IMG/VR virus record: IMGVR_UViG_3300024350_000252
Location: 1-64,000 of that record
Reading direction: 5' to 3' (one strand)
Source of the DNA: a virus
Length of the DNA: 64,000 nucleotides
This document shows, in pieces, positions 426 to 60,363 of this stretch. Position 1 is the first letter of the stretch; each line of letters begins with the position of its first letter. The position numbers and the translations under genes were made by a program. The notes beneath the pieces were generated by a model, which worked only from the letters and a program-made list of their open reading frames with translations, had not been told where the DNA came from and made no database searches.

Positions 426-524
426 GCCCCTGTAGCTTAATGGTAAAGAAGCGAGCTTATACCTCGCCAAAGCACAGGCCAGATAAGCCTGAGTGTGCAG
501 GTTCGAGTCCTGCCAGGGGCACCA
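426..524 (+). tRNA. tRNA-Ile(TAT) with 29-nt variable region
   Basis: Acceptor GCCCCTG/CAGGGGC is perfect and CCA is encoded. Anticodon stem GCGAG/CTCGC carries loop CTTATAC, anticodon TAT. The T arm is normal. The region between anticodon and T arms (468-496) is 29 nt and can form its own hairpin (AGGC/GCCT). A long arm is expected for Leu, Ser or Tyr tRNAs, not Ile. Confidence 0.75.
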
Positions 525-610: not shown

Positions 611-686
611 GCCGTCGTAGTGTTAGTGGCTAGCACGACTGTTTGTGGAGCAGTAGGAGTTGGATCGAAACCAACCGCCGGTACCA
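611..686 (+). tRNA. tRNA-His(GTG)
   Basis: Acceptor GCCGTCG/CGCCGGT has one mismatch at 5-68. The anticodon stem is ACTGT/GCAGT with loop TTGTGGA, anticodon GTG. The base before position 1 is T and the discriminator is A, so the G-1:C73 identity pair usual for tRNA-His is absent from the gene. Confidence 0.82.
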
Positions 687-884: not shown

Positions 885-2372
885 ATGAAAGGTCTTATTT
901 TTAATATTTTGGGTTCACCGACCCGAACGCTAGGCGCATATCGTATAGCTCATTGTCTCAGAGAAGAAGGTTGGGACATCGAAGTTATCGACTTCTGCGA
1001 AGTTTGGGAGTTAGATGAATTACAAGAGTTAGCAAAATCCCGGATCGACAAAGACACTGTCTTTCTAGGATTTAGTTTTCTTTTCAGCAACATGTCTGAA
1101 AGATTTGAAAACTATATCAAATGGTTGAAAGTTACTTTCCCAGATGTATTGTTGATTTCAGGAGGACAAGTAGCTGCTCAGTTTGATACTAGTTCTTTTG
1201 ATTTACATATAAAAGGTTTCGGTGAACTAGCACTGTTAGAATTCCTTAGATGGTACAAAGGCAACGGACCTAGACCGAGATTTGATTTGTTATCAAAAGG
1301 GTGTAAGCTCATAGATGCTAACAAACAGTATCCGGCATATCCAATGAAGAGTCTCATGGTCAAGTATGAAGATAGAGATTTCATAGACTCAAACGAATGG
1401 TTGACTATAGAGTTTGCTCGAGGTTGTAAATTTAAATGTGACTTCTGTAACTTTCCAATCTTAGGAGTCAAGGGCGACTATAGCAGAGATGCCGAAGACG
1501 CTAGGATACAATTACAAGACAGCTATGATAGATTCGGAGTATCCAACTATCTCGTATCAGATGAAACATTTAATGACCGAACTGAAAAGATCAGCAAGTT
1601 CGCTGATGTTGTAGAACAGCTTTCATTCCGACCTTGGTTCTCAGGATTCGTCAGGGCAGATTTATTGATATCTCGTCCTAGAGATAGAGAAGAACTGCTT
1701 AGGATGAATTTCCTAGGACAGTATTATGGTATAGAAAGTTTCAACAGAGATGCTGCCAGGATAGTTGGCAAAGGAATGGATCCTGAAAAGATCAAACAAG
1801 GGTTGATAGATATAAAAAATTATTATCATTCAAATGGTACAAAATTGTATCGAGGATCTATTAGTTTGATCATAGGGTTAGCAAAAGAAAATAGAGAAAG
1901 CCTAGACAATACTATTAGATGGTTGACAGAGAATTGGAGTGGCGAATCATTCAGTCCGTTTGTATTAGAAGTGCCTATAGGTTCGTTCGATACAAAATCT
2001 TCGATAAGTTCAAACTATCAATCATATGGTTATAGATTGATGAAAGATTCTGATGTAAAACGCAGCGCAAACTTGAATGTCGGGTATGTTAGGAGAGAAA
2101 CAGCTCTTAGTGAAGACTGTCTAAAATGGGAGCATGACGATCTTAACATAGTAGAAGCTACCCAGATACAGGATGAATGGTTAGAAGTTAGAGATAATCC
2201 TAACAATAAATTCACTGTAAACTGTTTTAGTTTAAGCGATGTCGGTAGACACTTACCTATATCTGAAAAATTAAAACTGCCTCAAAAGGCAATCGACATG
2301 AGTACAGATTGGAATCATCCAGATTTCAAAGAACTGATGGCGAATTATAAGTTCAAAAAATTATCTTTGTGA
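885..2372 (+). CDS. B12-binding-like radical SAM protein
   Basis: This is a 495-residue protein. Residues 1-140 look like a cobalamin-binding-type Rossmann domain (FLGFSFLFSN, LISGGQ, GFGELALLEF), followed by a radical SAM core with the CX3CX2C iron-sulfur motif at Cys181, Cys185 and Cys188 (CKFKCDFC). The order fits the large B12-dependent radical SAM class of methyltransferases and tailoring enzymes; the substrate is unknown. No C-terminal SPASM cysteine cluster is visible, so it is not a PqqE. A late-promoter box lies immediately upstream and there is no clear Shine-Dalgarno sequence. It is isolated between tRNA genes, which suggests insertion as a cassette. The fold is confident; the reaction is not. 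Confidence 0.85.
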   Translation: MKGLIFNILGSPTRTLGAYRIAHCLREEGWDIEVIDFCEVWELDELQELAKSRIDKDTVFLGFSFLFSNMSERFENYIKWLKVTFPDVLLISGGQVAAQFDTSSFDLHIKGFGELALLEFLRWYKGNGPRPRFDLLSKGCKLIDANKQYPAYPMKSLMVKYEDRDFIDSNEWLTIEFARGCKFKCDFCNFPILGVKGDYSRDAEDARIQLQDSYDRFGVSNYLVSDETFNDRTEKISKFADVVEQLSFRPWFSGFVRADLLISRPRDREELLRMNFLGQYYGIESFNRDAARIVGKGMDPEKIKQGLIDIKNYYHSNGTKLYRGSISLIIGLAKENRESLDNTIRWLTENWSGESFSPFVLEVPIGSFDTKSSISSNYQSYGYRLMKDSDVKRSANLNVGYVRRETALSEDCLKWEHDDLNIVEATQIQDEWLEVRDNPNNKFTVNCFSLSDVGRHLPISEKLKLPQKAIDMSTDWNHPDFKELMANYKFKKLSL

Positions 2373-17144: not shown

Positions 17145-17822
17145 ATGAAGAAAACTTTACTACTGTCTGCGGTAGCAGTTATCGCACTGGCGTCTGCCGG
17201 TATCGCTGCTGATCTACCAAAGAAGAAGAAGACTGAGCCTGCTGCGGCTGCTCCAGTCGTATCAGCAGTGCCTACTGAAAAACCAGTACAAGTAGCCAGT
17301 GCTGATACCACTATCGCTCTTGGATTCGGAATGGAATCTAATGACGGTGTTTACGACACCGCTAACAAGTATGCCTATAAGGTAGCTGTTGAGCGTAACA
17401 TCGGCGGTGGTGCGTTTGTTGGTGGTAATTTCCAAACCAGCCAAACACAACCAAACAATGGTGCTATCAAGCAGAACATCGAAGTCATCGGCGGCTACAA
17501 GCTGCCAATGGGTCCTGTATCTGTCAAGGGAAGTTTAGGTGTCGGTGAACGTTATACCGATGGCAATAACTTTTCTTACTATGTTGCTCGTGCTGGCGCA
17601 GACTATAAGCTGACCGACTCGATCACATTGAACGCTGCTCAATATCGTTATCGTAATGCGTTCGACACTACCAACAACTATCAGAGCCACCAAATCGGCA
17701 CTGGTATGACTTTCAACTACACGCAGAATCAGGCCATCTATGCCAATGTCTACCGTAACCTAGACAGCGGTTTCAATGTCACTGACAATGGTGTAGAAAT
17801 GGGACTTAAGGTTTCTTTCTAA
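17145..17822 (+). CDS. outer-membrane beta-barrel protein
   Basis: A 225-residue exported protein. Residues 1-21 are a signal peptide cleaved near SAGIA/ADLP, followed by a Lys/Pro/Ala linker and a barrel of alternating strands rich in Gly, Tyr and Asn that ends in Phe (MGLKVSF), the usual C-terminal residue for BAM-assembled barrels. The AADLPKKKK start after cleavage resembles alphaproteobacterial outer-membrane proteins. It could block superinfection by altering the surface or supply a porin function. It has its own promoter and terminator. Confidence 0.82.
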   Translation: MKKTLLLSAVAVIALASAGIAADLPKKKKTEPAAAAPVVSAVPTEKPVQVASADTTIALGFGMESNDGVYDTANKYAYKVAVERNIGGGAFVGGNFQTSQTQPNNGAIKQNIEVIGGYKLPMGPVSVKGSLGVGERYTDGNNFSYYVARAGADYKLTDSITLNAAQYRYRNAFDTTNNYQSHQIGTGMTFNYTQNQAIYANVYRNLDSGFNVTDNGVEMGLKVSF

Positions 17823-17828
17823 TTAACT

Positions 17829-17858
17829 GAAATAGCGGCGAGAGTCGCTATTTCCTTT
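17829..17858 (+). terminator. rho-independent terminator (moderate)
   Basis: GAAATAGCG (17829-17837) and CGCTATTTC (17846-17854) form a perfect 9-bp stem followed by CTTTATAT. The U-tract is imperfect. Confidence 0.65.
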
Positions 17859-17956
17859 ATATCATTTTCATGATTTTCACTATGTTTTTGAAGTTGGTTT
17901 TCCTGTAATATTACGATACATACTGTACACAAGTATGTTTCATAAAGGAGAATATT

Positions 17957-18028
17957 ATGTGGACCAAACCAGAAGCAGTTGAAATGCGATATGGTTTCGA
18001 AATCACTATGTACGTGATGAATCGATAA
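17957..18028 (+). CDS. pqqA: PqqA-like PQQ precursor peptide
   Basis: A 23-residue peptide whose start (MWTKPE) and end (GFEITMYVMNR) match the beta/gammaproteobacterial form of PqqA, the ribosomal peptide whose Glu and Tyr side chains are cross-linked to form pyrroloquinoline quinone. The required Glu-X3-Tyr pair is intact (Glu15, Tyr19). The gene has a strong RBS (AAAGGAG, 17944-17950, 6 nt before ATG) and a strong terminator 9 nt after the stop, so it is a self-contained unit. No PqqB, C, D or E is seen in the window, so processing would rely on host enzymes. Known family PF08042; not checked by search. Confidence 0.85.
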   Translation: MWTKPEAVEMRYGFEITMYVMNR

Positions 18029-18037
18029 CCAAAAAAG

Positions 18038-18063
18038 GCCCTAAGCGATTAGGGCTTTTTTTT
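18038..18063 (+). terminator. rho-independent terminator
   Basis: GCCCTAA-GCGA-TTAGGGC followed by eight T; an A run on the left makes it potentially bidirectional. It ends the pqqA transcript. Confidence 0.93.
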
Positions 18064-18076
18064 GACTAAAATACCG

Positions 18077-18111: not shown

Positions 18112-18222
18112 GTGGCCGTGAGTGGAATATGGCAGACCTCCAATCCGTTGTGAAACGCATTCGGGAAAGGGACACAGGCATAGCCGCCGTCTTTGTAGGT
18201 TCGAATCCTACCGGCCACACCA
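18112..18222 (+). ncRNA. tRNA-like RNA with aberrant anticodon domain
   Basis: The acceptor stem GTGGCCG/CGGCCAC is perfect, the T arm (GTAGG-TTCGAAT-CCTAC) is canonical and CCA is encoded, so the top half is a normal tRNA. The D region (GAG...CTC) is plausible. Between them lie about 60 nt with no standard 5-bp/7-nt anticodon arm. Possible stems are AGAC/GTCT, TTGTG/CACAG and GGC/GCC. It is 111 nt long with its own promoter, far from the main cluster. It might be an intron-bearing or decayed tRNA or a tRNA mimic. tRNA-Tyr and tRNA-Trp are the two missing from the set. Confidence 0.6.
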
Positions 18223-18263: not shown

Positions 18264-18455
18264 ATGTCAACAGTAAATCAAATCACAGAAGCAGTAACAG
18301 CATGGAAAGCAGAAGATGACAAGTTCACCGCAGGCAATGGTGCCGCAGGTACTCGTGCTCGCAAGGCACTAGCAGAACTTAGCAAGTTGATCAAGGCACG
18401 CCGTAACGAAATCACGGCAGAAAAGAACGCCCGCAAAGAAGCTAAGGCAAAGTAA
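18264..18455 (+). CDS. small histone-H1-like DNA-binding protein
   Basis: A 63-residue Lys/Arg/Ala-rich helical protein (GTRARKALAELSKLIKARRN) ending RKEAKAK. Composition and pattern resemble short bacterial Hc1-like and phage nucleoprotein families, suggesting binding to phage or host DNA. The RBS is AAGGAA. Function inferred from composition only. Confidence 0.65.
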   Translation: MSTVNQITEAVTAWKAEDDKFTAGNGAAGTRARKALAELSKLIKARRNEITAEKNARKEAKAK

Positions 18456-27600: not shown

Positions 27601-28331
27601 CTGCTTTCGATATCAGCGACTACTAAATTTTTTACATAAATGGTATTGCTGGTTATGTTGCCTCTAGTAGTCACAGACTGTAGATTGTCAGTTTCTGTAA
27701 CACCGAAACTTTCGAATTTTAATTCTTGTGGGCCGCCGCGTGTGATAGAAATACCACGCACAGGAGTTATAGTGATGCTTTGATTAGCACCTGCTGTGCT
27801 GCTAAGGTTGATATCTGTAGTTGCTAAAGGAACAGTCATGCTGTATTCAGCAGAGTTAATGTTCACAGATCCTGTATCTTGATCGATACCGTTGACAAAC
27901 ATACCAGCACCTAAAGTTATGTTTAGGCTGTCTCTGACACTTTTGGCTTCCAGGGTAGATCCAACAACAGGCAGTGTAGGATGGAAAAATCTCACAGTCC
28001 TAAAGGTGTCTATATAGGCTGTATCATAAGGAAAAGTATAATCAGCTACTAGCAAATGATTCGACCCAGATCCAACTGACAGCAGATCTATAGGAACGAT
28101 TTCCCTAGCATTTTGCTCAGTGGTTGCCAGTTTAAATGTGTTGGCTGTGAGATAGATAATGTAATACTTGTGTCCGTCTACTAATCCGCCTATACTGGTT
28201 CCGCCACCGTTATAATATATAACACCTTGATAATTATTGAATCCGTGGCTGTTCTTTGTAATTACGTCTGTACCAATGTTAACCGCTGTAGCAGGGTTAA
28301 ACGTTATCGGGCTAGTTGAAATCGCTGGCAT
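24642..28331 (-). CDS. repetitive tail-fibre-like structural protein
   Basis: A 1229-residue protein on the minus strand, rich in Thr, Ala, Gly, Asn and Val. About six repeats of a FNLLNTTATTVNAFGAATTV-type strand unit occupy the middle, suggesting a long beta-solenoid shaft. Two ~140-residue repeats with TLATLAGSESLTNKKL follow. The N-terminal ~90 residues (SPITFNPATAVNI...YYNGGGTSI) recur inside the 2510-residue protein at 36675. Probable fibre or adhesin reading host surface. ATG at 28331 with AGGA upstream and an AATAAATA box on the minus strand. Confidence 0.8.
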   Translation of the reverse strand: MPAISTSPITFNPATAVNIGTDVITKNSHGFNNYQGVIYYNGGGTSIGGLVDGHKYYIIYLTANTFKLATTEQNAREIVPIDLLSVGSGSNHLLVADYTFPYDTAYIDTFRTVRFFHPTLPVVGSTLEAKSVRDSLNITLGAGMFVNGIDQDTGSVNINSAEYSMTVPLATTDINLSSTAGANQSITITPVRGISITRGGPQELKFESFGVTETDNLQSVTTRGNITSNTIYVKNLVVADIESSDGGLSGITISAGDNVTGTGTIGNPLLLSPDETQSSSAARTVTINFTAAGDGMLDYTAVYKVLDSIVSGSVVLQRQDPSTLIWSNLDSASGVVALQSYQISNIYSEVYNGAVNYRIIIDWTGNTGNVSYRIRVSFNPAPVTGVTMLTTDTDNQTLTLGSSGGTIYLNSRVDTNGLRIFENNIIGTNSNDDIVIDLNGTGALELRATTLKTDQTSFNLINTTATTLNIGGSATTITMGAATGTFNINNPTLTTPNLSTFNMNGANPSVSTTSTGTASVFNTNALTGNLFGAATAVNIGANSGTLTIGNPTITGTNATSLNLNGSSPSITTTSTGTVSVFNTNAVTGNLFGAATTIDIGASGGAGTLTIKNDNVVINGDLQVKGGDITTNQTSFNLIDGTATTVQAFGAATTLTFSTAGGTTTFRSDVVINQDLQIKGGDLTTNALTFNLLNTDATTINAFGAASTVNLATVGTTIEIGNSSGTTNINNNLVVDLDLQVKGGDITTDQTSFNLLNTTATTVNAFGAATTVSIGAATGTTTVNNALTASPANLNVTFSPTGTGTVTVNPATAGTINNMSIGVTTAAAGRFTTLKVKDTSAAFDLSVIPTSSTALTAGRSLTVDVINADRTVKLNGNIDLGGNLTTANALTTSGNFALTLTTTNTTNVTLPTTGTLATLAGSESLTNKKLGSLTSNGIVTTSGGDGTLSVTATTGSGSVVLGTSPTISGTSTSITNVGTFALRDTSAAFDLTIAATSSTALTAGRTLTLDVVNAARTVKLAGNIDIANNLTTSGNFALTLTTTASTSVTLPTTGTLATLAGSESLTNKKLGSLTSNGIVTTSGGDGTLSVLSTTGTGNVVLGSNPTLVSPTYGNSSSTSDADATVDASTTTFYAYVQSASGTARTINISNLTAGREVRIYLRNTNAATKAITITASTTASGFANVAMAGSFVGANAVGQVSASTITLAATSGTAMVTVFNANGTIAGSAV
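24990..25830 (-). repeat. two ~140-residue direct repeats within fibre gene
   Basis: Units of about 24990-25389 and 25390-25830 encode near-identical blocks starting DTSAAFDL and containing LPTTGTLATLAGSESL and TSNGIVTTSGGDGTL. The DNA copies differ at many third positions, so the duplication is old or selected at protein level. Confidence 0.75.
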
Positions 28332-33086: not shown

Positions 33087-33489
33087 GATTGGTTTTACTT
33101 GCTCTACGTTTGATCTGTTCCACGCAGGTCATGTGATGATGCTAGAAGAAGCTAAAACAAAATGCGATTATCTAATTGTGGGATTACAGACCGATCCCAC
33201 ACTAGATCGGCCACACAAGAATAAACCTGTACAAGGTGTATTTGAAAGGTGGGTACAGCTTAATGGCTGTAAGCATGTGGATCAGATCGTTCCATATGCT
33301 ACAGAACAAGAGCTCTACGATATCTTGAATTCTTTTCCTATTGATGTTAGAATATTAGGAGAAGAATACATAGACAAAGATTTTACTGGCAGCGGTCTAC
33401 CGATGGAATATCATTTCAATAGACGCAGGCACAGTTTTTCCACAACCGAATTAAGACAGCGTGTAGTTGACGCAGAAAGCAACAAATGA
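33079..33489 (+). CDS. TagD-like cytidylyltransferase
   Basis: A 136-residue nucleotidyltransferase with HxGH (FDLFHAGH, His15, His18), the RWVQLNGCKHVDQIV block and STTELRQR at the C terminus, as in glycerol-3-phosphate cytidylyltransferases. Likely forms a CDP-activated alcohol or sugar phosphate for the nearby glycosyltransferases. Confidence 0.85.
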   Translation: MTKIGFTCSTFDLFHAGHVMMLEEAKTKCDYLIVGLQTDPTLDRPHKNKPVQGVFERWVQLNGCKHVDQIVPYATEQELYDILNSFPIDVRILGEEYIDKDFTGSGLPMEYHFNRRRHSFSTTELRQRVVDAESNK

Positions 33490-34514
33490 CTAAACGTATA
33501 GGGTTTGCCTGTAAATGGATCGACGGTCCTAGCCAAATCGACGGCATCAAACAGAAGGACGACTGTAAGCAGTACAATACAGGTAGCACCACTGTGGCAT
33601 GGTTAAATAGACAGACGAGAGAAGTAGCAGAACAAAAGCTATGGGATCTAGCTAATGCTAATATCGAAGCTACTCGTAAACTTGTCGAACGTGTAGGAGA
33701 ATTACCCGATGAACTCCGTATGGTCCGCCTTAGCAGTGATATTCTTCCTGTCTACACTGAGCCTAGCTGGTCTTACTATTATCGTCAGCCTGATGTCCGC
33801 TTACATCTTGAAAGAGCCTTTTCGAGTGTGGGCGATCTGGGACGCAGTCGGGGGGTACGCCTTAGCTTTCACCCTGGTCAATTTTGTGTGTTGGCTAGTG
33901 ATAATGATGACGTTGTTAGTCGCTCTATAGAGGAGTTCGAATATCATGTGGACATGGCTCGCTGGATGGGATATGGCAAAACGTTTCAAGACTTTAAAAT
34001 CAATGTTCATATCGCAGGCCGACAAGGCCCAATGGGAATACGTGCTGCGTTGGCTAGGATGACTCCCGAGGCCCGTAACACGCTAACTATCGAAAATGAT
34101 GAAATGACTTGGGGCATAGAAGACAGCATCGAGCTAGTCAACGATTGTGCCCTTGTACTAGATATACATCATCATTGGGTAAACTCAGGAGAATATATCG
34201 ATGCTAATGACGACCGTGTTAAAAGGATTATTGATAGCTGGCGGGGTGCTAGCCGCCCTGTGCTTCATTACTCTGTCAGCCGTGAAGATATATTGGTTGG
34301 ACACGACATGTATACCCTTCCTGATATGGCCCAACTGCTGAGCCAAGGATACAAAAAACAAAAACTCAGAGCTCATTCTAACTTTTACTGGAATCAACCA
34401 GCAAACGAATGGGCTCTGAGTTTCCGAGACAACTTCGATATCATGTGCGAGAGCAAAGCTAAAAATCTAGCTAGTTTCGCACTATACGAAGAAGCGCAAC
34501 AGTTAGGCTGCTGA
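33486..34514 (+). CDS. uvsE: UV damage endonuclease (UvsE/UVDE)
   Basis: A 342-residue TIM-barrel nuclease that nicks DNA 5' to UV photoproducts. Family blocks: GFACKWIDG, RLSSDILPVY, RLSFHPGQF, NVHIAGRQGPM, LTIENDEM, DIHHHW and LRAHSNFYW. Typical length. It overlaps the cytidylyltransferase by 4 nt and the convergent gene by 12 nt. Provides repair of phage DNA in sunlit water (inference). Confidence 0.92.
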   Translation: MTKRIGFACKWIDGPSQIDGIKQKDDCKQYNTGSTTVAWLNRQTREVAEQKLWDLANANIEATRKLVERVGELPDELRMVRLSSDILPVYTEPSWSYYYRQPDVRLHLERAFSSVGDLGRSRGVRLSFHPGQFCVLASDNDDVVSRSIEEFEYHVDMARWMGYGKTFQDFKINVHIAGRQGPMGIRAALARMTPEARNTLTIENDEMTWGIEDSIELVNDCALVLDIHHHWVNSGEYIDANDDRVKRIIDSWRGASRPVLHYSVSREDILVGHDMYTLPDMAQLLSQGYKKQKLRAHSNFYWNQPANEWALSFRDNFDIMCESKAKNLASFALYEEAQQLGC

Positions 34515-58017: not shown

Positions 58018-60363
58018 ATGTTAGAACCCAGTGAAAAGTTACAAGCGATTTTTGAACGTGCTATCGGATTAGCTCAACAACTGTCACACGAATATGTGAC
58101 ATTAGAACATCTTACCTTTGCCATAATGTGCGATGATGACATGATCAAAGCACTAAAGGAATATGGAGCCAATAGTGATTTTATAAAATCTAATCTAGAA
58201 CAATTTCTTAAAAATCAACTTAATGAAATACGCACAGACCTTAAAGGTCAAAAACCCCGAAGGACTGCTAGTGTAGAACGTGTGTTAAATCGCAGTTTCA
58301 CACAAACACTGTTTAGCGGTAGACAAAAGATCGAAGTAGAAGATGTACTGATTGCGATCTTGAGTGAAAGAAAAAGTTTCGCTTTTTATTATCTAACCAA
58401 AGGCGGGATTGTCAAAGAAAAATTTATACAATATTGCCAAGGCAAATTTGAAGAAACTGACGAAGAAAACATGCCACGCAATATTCATCCATCACAGCTT
58501 GACAAGATACTTAACAACTACTGTGTAAATCTTACTCAGATGGCCAAACAAAAGAAAATCGATCCTGTCATCGGTCGTGATGAAGAAATTGAAAATATAC
58601 AATTGATTTTGGCTAGACGAACCAAGTCTAATGTACTACTGATCGGTGAACCAGGTGTTGGTAAGACTGCTATCGCAGAAGGTCTTGCTCGCAAGATCTT
58701 TGAAAAGAAAGTACCTAAGTTCCTACACGATCACTTAGTTTATACACTAGACATTTCAGCACTACTAGCAGGCAGCAAATATCGTGGCGATTTTGAAGAA
58801 CGTTGGAAAGCGGTGTTGGCAGCTTTAGAAAAGAAAGGCAAGGTGATTTTATTCATCGACGAAGCGCACATGATGAGTGGTGCCGGTGCTGCGAATGGTT
58901 CTGCTAACGATCTAGCCAATATGCTTAAACCCATGTTGACTAAAGGCACTATGAAGGTTATTGCTTCTACGACATGGGAAGAATTCCGTAAGCACTTTGA
59001 AAAGGATCGCGCATTGATGCGTAGATTCCAAAGAGTGAATGTCGACGAGCCTACACCGGAATTGACCGTCAAGATCATGAAGGGCGTTCGTAGATATTAT
59101 GAACAGCATCACAAAGTACGCATCACAGATGCTGCTATCGAAAATGCTGTTAAACTATCTATGAAATATATGCCAGAAAAGAAACTGCCAGATAAAGCTA
59201 TCGACATCATCGACTGTGCTGCTGCTAGATTTAAAATTAGACCCGATGCAGAAACAGAAGGCGATGATATCAACATCGTTGATCTAGAACAGATCATGTT
59301 TGAAGTCAGCAAAATGACCAAGATGCCGTTTGAAACTGTTTCTGAAAGAGAAAGCAACAGTCTTGTAAATCTCGAAAGCAACATGAAGAATACTGTGTTT
59401 GGTCAAGAAAAAGCTATCACTAATCTAGTAGACAAGATATTTGTAGCACAGGCAGGTATGAAGTTGCCTAACAAGCCAGTGGGCTGTTTCTTGTTCGTTG
59501 GTCCTACAGGTACAGGTAAAACAGAAACTGCCAAGAAGCTGTCTGAATCACTAGGTATTCCATTAGTTAGATTTGACATGAGCGAATACCAAGAGAAACA
59601 TGCTGTAGCAAAATTGATTGGTGCTCCTCCAGGATATGTAGGCTATGAAGATAACACAGGTCTACTTATTACTAAACTACAGGAAACACCTAACTGTGTG
59701 TTGCTGTTAGATGAAATCGAAAAGGCACATCAAGACGTTACTAACATTCTGTTACAGTTGATGGATAACGGTTTTGTTACAGGTAGCAATGGTAAGATGG
59801 CCGACGGTCGAAATACTATTTTGATCATGACATCAAACTTGGGTGCTGCTGACAACGAACAGAACACTATTGGTTTCGGAGATCTATCCAAGGACGGTGA
59901 GGACGACAAAGCAGTTAAGAAGTTCTTTGCCCCTGAATTCCGTAATAGACTCGACAGTGTTATTAAGTTTGACAAACTGTCTAAAGATACTGTACGTATT
60001 ATCGTTGACAAGTTTATGAAAGATCTTAACACACAGATCAAAGACAAGTATGTTGAGATCATTATCGACGATGATGCTAGAGATTGGTTAGCAGACCGTG
60101 GTTACAATAGCAAGATGGGTGCCAGACCGTTAGCTAGAGTTATCGATAACGAAATCAAGAGCCCGCTGAGCCGTAAGATTTTGTTCGGTGAACTTAAAGA
60201 TGGCGGAAGAGTATTTGTTAGAGTAGAAAATGACCAACTGGTATTCGAAGTAAAAAATCTAGGTGACGGTCTTACCAAGCTAGAAAAACGTGCGTTGAAG
60301 CAGCATAAGAAAGTATTAGATGGCAAACTATTCGATGACGAAGTACAAAACAACAACTCGTAG
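58018..60363 (+). CDS. clpA: ClpA-like AAA+ unfoldase
   Basis: A 781-residue two-ring Clp ATPase. N-domain with LSHEYVTLEHL (residues 20-31); D1 Walker A GEPGVGKTA (210-218) and FIDEAHMM; D2 Walker A GPTGTGKTE (495-503), LLLDEIEKAH. An IGF tripeptide in NTIGFGDL sits where ClpA has its ClpP-binding loop, so it could dock to host ClpP. No M-domain (not ClpB). Confidence 0.93.
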   Translation: MLEPSEKLQAIFERAIGLAQQLSHEYVTLEHLTFAIMCDDDMIKALKEYGANSDFIKSNLEQFLKNQLNEIRTDLKGQKPRRTASVERVLNRSFTQTLFSGRQKIEVEDVLIAILSERKSFAFYYLTKGGIVKEKFIQYCQGKFEETDEENMPRNIHPSQLDKILNNYCVNLTQMAKQKKIDPVIGRDEEIENIQLILARRTKSNVLLIGEPGVGKTAIAEGLARKIFEKKVPKFLHDHLVYTLDISALLAGSKYRGDFEERWKAVLAALEKKGKVILFIDEAHMMSGAGAANGSANDLANMLKPMLTKGTMKVIASTTWEEFRKHFEKDRALMRRFQRVNVDEPTPELTVKIMKGVRRYYEQHHKVRITDAAIENAVKLSMKYMPEKKLPDKAIDIIDCAAARFKIRPDAETEGDDINIVDLEQIMFEVSKMTKMPFETVSERESNSLVNLESNMKNTVFGQEKAITNLVDKIFVAQAGMKLPNKPVGCFLFVGPTGTGKTETAKKLSESLGIPLVRFDMSEYQEKHAVAKLIGAPPGYVGYEDNTGLLITKLQETPNCVLLLDEIEKAHQDVTNILLQLMDNGFVTGSNGKMADGRNTILIMTSNLGAADNEQNTIGFGDLSKDGEDDKAVKKFFAPEFRNRLDSVIKFDKLSKDTVRIIVDKFMKDLNTQIKDKYVEIIIDDDARDWLADRGYNSKMGARPLARVIDNEIKSPLSRKILFGELKDGGRVFVRVENDQLVFEVKNLGDGLTKLEKRALKQHKKVLDGKLFDDEVQNNNS

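Follow-up and report, generated by a model that had tools for sequence, protein, structure and literature searches.

An orphan pqqA gene in a tailed-phage genome, apparently placed behind a pqq control element of Methylophilaceae

The pqqA locus

The window analyzed here is a stretch of 64,000 nucleotides, positions 1 to 64,000 of the 238,047-base IMG/VR virus record IMGVR_UViG_3300024350_000252. Its features are listed in Table 1. The pqqA frame translates as MWTKPEAVEMRYGFEITMYVMNR*, a peptide of 23 residues, and matched both PF08042 (E 8.8e-9, 35.6 bits; curated cut-off 21.1) and the equivalog model TIGR02107 (E 1.2e-8, 34.6 bits; cut-off 20). The initial annotation, made from the letters alone, had called this frame PqqA, had proposed a PF08042 search as a check and had pointed to Glu15 and Tyr19. 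Both profiles confirmed the call, and the two residues are present in the E-X3-Y spacing. Length, W2, T3, P5, R11, G13-F14-E15, T17, M18 and Y19 are common to the window peptide, a bacterial PqqA and other phage copies. The combination E6/V8/Y12/I16 occurs in phages and is absent from the closest 80 of the 518 genome loci listed. We take the frame to be a genuine PqqA; it gave the single PF08042 match in the whole record (E 2.2e-8). The peptide had no match in PHROGs, and a search of solved structures returned chance matches only.

The record encodes a large terminase, indicating a tailed phage. The nearest isolate relatives of this terminase are Pseudomonas jumbo phages, e.g., PA5oct, at about 54% identity. 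With a terminase in the record and the gene present in nine named methylophage isolates (see below), pqqA is a host-type metabolic gene inside a true phage genome.

Table 1. Features of the window
Feature	Positions	Strand	Remarks
tRNA	426-521	+	Rfam; missed by ARAGORN
tRNA	611-683	+	Rfam; missed by ARAGORN
Radical-SAM protein	885-2372	+	within tRNA region
225-aa protein	17145-17822	+	directly 5' of pqqA
Hairpin 3' of the upstream gene, parting that gene from pqqA	17829-17854	+	MFE -16.0, z -4.9
Putative host-type pqq operator, imperfect dyad TTCATGATTTTCACTAT	17867-17883	+	host-matrix score 9.7
Putative -10, TAATAT	17906-17911	+	22 nt after the dyad; weak, 4/6
Leader hairpin, ACATACT/AGTATGT	17918-17938	+	sequence reading; begins at inferred mRNA 5' end
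Ribosome binding site, AAAGGAG	17944-17950	+	sequence reading; six bases 5' of ATG
pqqA	17957-18028	+	23 codons, stop included; PF08042 and TIGR02107 above curated cut-offs
Intrinsic terminator of pqqA	18029-18066	+	stem 18038-18055, then T8
tRNA-like element	18112-18219	+	Rfam tRNA, 29.7 bits (cut-off 29)
Histone H1-like Hc1 protein	18264-18455	+	PF07432, E 1.7e-14
Homologue of UV-endonuclease UvdE	33486-34514	+
ClpA-like ATPase	58018-60363	+	781 aa, 893.6 bits (cut-off 993)

The terminator region folds with an MFE of -17.2 kcal/mol (z -4.8), and none of 200 shuffles folded equally well. Since one hairpin lies upstream and the terminator hairpin downstream, pqqA is punctuated on both sides. 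The earlier description of a stand-alone unit with its own ribosome binding site and terminator thus holds, and the second hairpin adds to it. Across viral pqqA loci, a Shine-Dalgarno-like word was found within 20 nt 5' of the start at 140 of 146 distinct loci, and a terminator-like structure within 90 nt downstream at 66 of 146, compared with 58 of 843 other ORF ends. Both neighbors are on the opposite strand at 53 of the 127 viral loci that have neighbors on both sides. A pair similar to the ACATACT...AGTATGT leader hairpin was present in most of the related jumbo-phage contigs aligned; one lacks the pair and one differs. By sequence reading, the 225-aa protein encoded directly 5' of pqqA resembles a secreted small outer-membrane barrel; it matched nothing in NCBIfam, Pfam or PHROGs.

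Occurrence among viruses

When the peptide was searched by tblastn against 50,697 phage records, 12 matched. Nine of these are named phages of Methylophilales or Methylophilaceae (MEP401, MEP402, MEP301, Venkman, P19250A and four Melnitz). Of the other three, one is a podovirus genome from the environment and two are contigs labeled Acinetobacter phage MD-2021a. All nine matches with a named host therefore infect Methylophilales or Methylophilaceae, a figure that counts tblastn matches and not all methylophages, as taxonomy names further ones. The two MD-2021a matches are not included in the phage counts. One of them, CAKLQF020000010.1, was examined; it contains a pqqA-E cluster of bacterial type and appears to be host DNA. 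The second contig encodes the identical peptide. A repeat search with this bacterial PqqA as the query returned the same 12 records and none further, so that no other phage record, of any host, shows pqqA at this sensitivity. The collection includes phages of other potential PQQ makers (Klebsiella, Acinetobacter and Pseudomonas).

In IMG/VR, at least 590 stretches with pqqA relatives were found. None of the seven methylophage and environmental records examined has pqqA annotated, and where a hypothetical protein overlaps the gene in those records, it is on the opposite strand. In P19250A, for example, the unannotated gene lies at 28085-28153 of KX815270.1.

With a requirement of two or more proteins in common, the flanks of 168 viral loci formed 21 groups, indicating many genomic contexts. 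This clustering leaves out antisense frames over pqqA; with them nearly everything was joined, probably due to antisense pqqA frames matching one another. Removal of duplicates, and of loci whose flanking DNA was short, left 146 of the 168 loci for the counts of Shine-Dalgarno-like words and terminators and 140 for the dyad counts below. One terminase family was matched by 15 of 36 pqqA-bearing records, and 4 of the 7 phage records miss it as well. The phage nature of many contigs consequently rests on their IMG/VR assignment, while that of the isolates is not in doubt.

Conservation and selection

Glu15 and Tyr19 were found at 118 of 118 viral loci among the matches listed, in a scan whose pattern left both residues free. 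The stop was as expected at all 118 loci listed. Met stood at the aligned first position in 112, and in the other 6 an ATG lies one or two codons further upstream. The pattern of this second scan excludes frame breaks inside its own 41 bases.

Because pattern scans fix residues, selection was measured in three ways. For 69 distinct sequences from the first 80 viral loci listed, the pooled pN/pS over all codons was 0.119; on the codons left unfixed by the pattern it was 0.239. In all 28 of the pairs formed among the isolates, the environmental genome and the window, pN was lower than pS. When the window is set against seven other phage genomes, 9.0 to 13.0 of about 13 synonymous sites and 5.0 to 8.5 of about 53 nonsynonymous sites differ. 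These values indicate that purifying selection is acting on the phage pqqA coding sequence. According to the initial annotation, a frame neither conserved in related phages nor biased toward synonymous change would have spoken against its call. The bias is clear in the comparison with the seven phages, and the call is not refuted by this check, but within the phage's own lineage the gene is patchy.

Among terminase-related records, pqqA was present in 1 of the 21 searched; five of these reach 190 kb or more, and one of the five has it. The 21 are the records of at least 54.7 kb among the best 80 terminase loci (two of 54 to 56 kb were left out), and many terminase-related records are fragments. 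Such patchiness would be seen with a gene that tracks the host, and also with a dispensable one. It would be expected if a host pqqA had recently been captured together with its promoter, was functionless for the phage and was soon to be lost, and the similarity of the phage promoter to that of the host (see below) points the same way. We consider this very unlikely, however: the window has diverged from the other phages at most synonymous positions and yet the protein is kept, the Shine-Dalgarno-like word is nearly constant (140 of 146), Y12 and I16 occur in phages and in none of the closest 80 of 518 genome loci, and pqqA is present in isolates of different lineages.

Absence of the other pqq genes

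No pqqB-E genes were found near viral pqqA at 87 loci (80 among the IMG/VR matches listed plus the 7 phage records). As a positive comparison, the same search found pqqBCDE just downstream in 7 of 80 bacterial pqqA loci, and pqqB 7 kb away in one further locus of the 80. Likewise, no pqqB-E lay beside the 118 second-scan loci among the matches listed, whose contigs are partly shared with the first set. The PqqE profile gave no match at its cut-off across 36 pqqA-bearing records, with three weak matches. The initial annotation had suggested looking for pqqB, -C, -D and -E elsewhere in the phage; a search of the whole 238-kb record for PqqE found none above the cut-off. The PQQ-dehydrogenase domain PF13360 had no match at E 0.01 in this record, which may be incomplete, and none at E 0.001 in 51 pqqA-bearing viral records. 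In a 364-kb pqqA-bearing relative, a 1262-aa frame gave one PF13360 match below the cut-off.

Four Radical_SAM matches were found in the 238-kb record, two of them above the cut-off (the protein at 885-2372 and an NF033640 member). These proteins were considered as PqqE and rejected, being instead B12-binding-like, an NF033640 member and QueE-like; the fourth, weak match sits in a NodU-like frame. Their presence would suit a peptide that is the precursor of another ribosomal product and is modified by the phage's own radical-SAM protein. As all of them fall short of the cut-offs for PqqE and for peptide maturases and the peptide has the conserved residues of the PqqA family, we regard such a product as extremely improbable. 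The protein at 885-2372 has a B12-binding-like domain below the cut-off and reached no specific family.

pqqA in Methylophilaceae genomes

Among the closest 80 of 518 genome loci, selected with search patterns that favor a peptide of the window type, 71 have a Methylo- taxon in the title; the other nine are isolate KB13 and eight MAGs with higher-rank names. All 12 Methylophilaceae genomes analyzed carry 2 to 8 pqqA copies each (54 in total) and exactly one pqqE each, and four genomes of 1.2 to 1.3 Mb retain three pqqA each. In the parts of PMC4109929 that were available, 3 to 12 pqqA copies are described, with the remaining genes as one set in all but one genome. Given multiple pqqA and a single pqqE in the hosts, a phage that brings pqqA alone does as these bacteria do.

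A dyad shared with host pqq promoters

A scan for sigma-70 -35/-10 pairs gave no clear enrichment upstream of viral pqqA, either at a score of at least 9 (68 of 145, compared with 226 of 853 ORFs and 278 of 725 shuffles) or at 10.5 (8 of 145, compared with 67 of 853 other ORFs). The upstream regions were then read side by side, and a dyad was found. The alignment gave TTAATGATTTTCACTATG, located mostly 76 to 121 bases 5' of the ATG. With up to three mismatches it occurs at 35 of 140 viral pqqA loci, compared with 2 of 917 other ORFs. The palindrome CTMATGANNNTCATKAG is common to the pqqA and pqqB-E promoters of Methylophilaceae.

In the 12 genomes (about 27 Mb), CTMATGANNNTCATKAG has 18 exact sites: 15 at pqqA, 2 at pqqB-E and 1 elsewhere, the last upstream of a pentapeptide-repeat protein. 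With one mismatch allowed there are 55 sites, 26 at pqqA, 7 at pqqB-E and 22 elsewhere, compared with 6 for the reversed pattern. A site counted as at pqqB-E lies 1.5 to 3.5 kb before pqqE, and one of the seven was verified to have PqqB next to it. A site with no more than one mismatch accompanies 26 of the 54 host pqqA copies. Four of the 22 non-pqq sites were examined, and two of these fall inside unrelated genes. One one-mismatch site is located about 90 nt before a frame of the methanol/ethanol-family PQQ-dehydrogenases, a cut fragment that scored 310.8 bits against a model cut-off of 480.

A matrix was built from 47 host sites, with the threshold of 6.66 set where 1% of other viral ORFs (8 of 741) pass. 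The matrix was passed by 64 of 140 viral pqqA upstream regions, with 61 of the 64 sites at 60 to 130 bases from the ATG; in the controls, 17 of 700 shuffles passed, and the reversed matrix passed 2 of 140. A Fisher value for this enrichment overstates it, as the viral loci are partly related; the passing loci are spread over 12 of 19 flank-defined groups. Among 37 loci not used before, a few of which are contigs already in the first set, 8 passed, all at 60 to 130 nt, a rate below that of the first set. The dyad was first read in the phages and was found again at host pqqA, and the consensus and matrix were then written from host sites. Evidence more independent of these steps comes from where sites fall across the genomes, from the control ORFs and from the 37 loci.

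The dyad in the window scored 9.7, above the threshold, but has three mismatches to the host consensus. Venkman, Melnitz and the environmental podovirus also scored above the threshold, and P19250A, MEP301, MEP401 and MEP402 scored below it. In the 238-kb record, 25 places, the window dyad included, match the consensus as well or better, and in the window five places pass the matrix threshold, one of them scoring above 17867-17883. With equal or better chance matches elsewhere, the case for this dyad rests on its position and on related phages, in which a near-identical element is present. Taken together, the upstream sequences suggest that the phage pqqA apparently lies behind the control element that methylotrophs use for their own copies. 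The one Acinetobacter pqqA upstream region scored gave 4.1, under the threshold. Among the papers listed in a literature search, none dealt with a pqq operator in Methylophilaceae.

An operator-like dyad 5' of 64 of 140 viral pqqA could also point to titration: phage replication would add copies of the pqq operator that sequester the regulator of the host, and the peptide would be secondary. The coding sequence is under purifying selection, though, and MEP401, MEP402, MEP301 and P19250A keep pqqA without an operator recognizable at the matrix threshold. Titration of this kind thus appears very improbable as the main function.

Promoter geometry

In related phages, TATAAT lies at the same distance from the dyad as TAATAT does in the window. 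Among 67 viral sites, a -10 with at least five of six matches was found at 20, 21 and 22 nt past the dyad in 4, 10 and 14 cases, respectively. In the host sites, a TAnnAT -10 lies 44 bases past the dyad, with at least five of six matches in 21 of 47, and the aligned host promoters have a strong dyad near -65 and a second, degenerate dyad near -42. The spacing of 44 also occurs in some other phages (10 of 67). A -10 signal at spacing 5 was attributed to the second half-site of the dyad. With a TATAAT-like -10 about 22 nt after the dyad, the dyad center in the window's phage group comes to lie near -42, the class II activator position.

Proposed role

PqqA is the sole protein of the pathway that is consumed one-for-one per cofactor, and a phage would for this reason need to bring pqqA alone. 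We consider it likely that the phage supplies PqqA, the consumed substrate, to PQQ synthesis of the host under the host's own PQQ control. Transcription would start from a stand-alone promoter bearing the dyad of Methylophilaceae pqqA and pqqB-E. In this phage group the dyad lies some 42 bp from the inferred start, at the position used by class II activators. As the dyad is shared, a host regulator would read the phage promoter alongside the host copies. The phage would make the peptide, which PqqD/PqqE, PqqB and PqqC of the host and a protease would convert to PQQ, and the cofactor would go to the host's PQQ-dependent methanol dehydrogenases. In this way the phage pqqA probably keeps cofactor production going during infection.

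The steps observed in support of this are the gene, its family, conservation, selection, no pqqB-E nearby, the multi-copy habit of the hosts and the shared dyad. From them we infer a methylotrophic host, expression during infection, the role of an activator and a gain in PQQ. That the peptide feeds a PQQ-making host had already been proposed in the initial annotation, and the family match, the Glu and Tyr residues, the 9 of 9 methylotroph phages and the host promoter element support it well. In the available text of PMC7936290, single-gene overexpression in Gluconobacter is cited as a way to raise PQQ, most with pqqB and next with pqqA; the gain with pqqA speaks for supply of PqqA as the function, and the larger gain with pqqB speaks against it. 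The lack of a PQQ-dehydrogenase domain in the phage, the patchiness in its lineage, the imperfect dyad and weak -10 of the window and the four isolates below the matrix threshold also weigh against this reading.

A decoy would likewise need a PqqA-like peptide. As such it would occupy PqqD/PqqE or the protease and shut down PQQ synthesis, for instance to slow periplasmic methanol oxidation of the host or to exclude competitors, and the lack of pqqB-E (87 loci) and of a PQQ-dehydrogenase domain (51 records) in the viral DNA is in keeping with it. An inhibitor could, however, drop Glu15 or Tyr19, and the two are unvarying at the 118 loci listed, which is what a cross-linkable substrate would require. 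The host-type operator before many phage copies fits adding to host expression and not opposing it, and the methylotroph genomes themselves keep several pqqA copies. A decoy is therefore unlikely, and the diversion of PqqE that the initial annotation offered as its alternative found no support, as none of the 118 viral variants listed lost either residue.

If supply of PqqA is the function, it may extend beyond this phage. We give about an even chance to the view that PqqA supply is a near-general need of Methylophilaceae phages, met repeatedly in unrelated lineages by capture of the peptide gene, with the host operator either captured alongside it or re-evolved, and that these phages plug into an undescribed PQQ regulon of the host and not into promoters of their own. 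The evidence points to cofactor supply, rather than enzyme supply, as a bottleneck of methanol-fueled infection, which would bear on one-carbon cycling in marine and freshwater habitats. A gene so short is easily missed, being unannotated in the seven phage records examined and yet present in nine isolates and hundreds of contigs. It may be useful as a marker by which to recognize phages of these methylotrophs in sequence data, and it has exposed a candidate PQQ operator in Methylophilaceae.

Relation to known systems

In cyanophages, psbA and similar auxiliary metabolic genes replace a consumed part of the main energy machinery of the host. The product of pqqA differs in that it is neither an enzyme nor a reaction-centre subunit but a peptide from which a cofactor is made. 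Compared with other members of the PF08042/TIGR02107 family, the window copy scores above both cut-offs and differs in being phage-borne, orphan and flanked by hairpins. The stand-alone pqqA copies of Methylophilaceae described in the available part of PMC4109929 are likewise orphan and unlinked to pqqB-E, and they have the upstream dyad in common with the phage gene. The latter is virus-borne, and in its group one dyad is present, roughly 42 bp 5' of the inferred start, whereas the aligned host promoters combine a strong dyad near -65 with a degenerate dyad near -42.

The initial annotation knew of no described phage PQQ system. This was mistaken: in the accessible text of PMC7678222, PqqA and methanol dehydrogenase are reported for the Lake Baikal Methylophilaceae phage population VP_266, and phage-encoded PqqA is proposed as an auxiliary metabolic gene there. 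VP_266 has a phage methanol dehydrogenase, whereas the phage of the window has no PF13360 match and thus differs from the Baikal-type module. The same text states that P19250A encodes none of the listed auxiliary genes, contrary to the pqqA found at 28085-28153. In PMC13188868, as far as its text was available, pqqA is named in a list of viral genes from reservoir sediment. These two were the only papers found in the literature search for phage-encoded PqqA, within the text retrieved. PMC11118758, in the portion retrieved, concerns a bacterial PqqA family expressed beside defence systems and not a phage gene. The retrieved parts of the papers on Venkman, MEP301, MEP401 and Melnitz have no mention of PqqA and name PQQ once, as a medium component. 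Within the literature searched, three points are new: the breadth of occurrence, the orphan state of the gene and the operator it has in common with the hosts.

Other features of the window

The tRNA-like element just downstream of pqqA has readable acceptor and T arms and a CACACCA end and received no ARAGORN call. Its long middle is perhaps that of a degenerate or intron-bearing tRNA. Besides the 28 ARAGORN calls in the window, Rfam detected the two further tRNAs of Table 1. The window also encodes the Hc1 protein and the UvdE homologue, and the ClpA-like ATPase matches a PHROG of ATP-dependent proteases.
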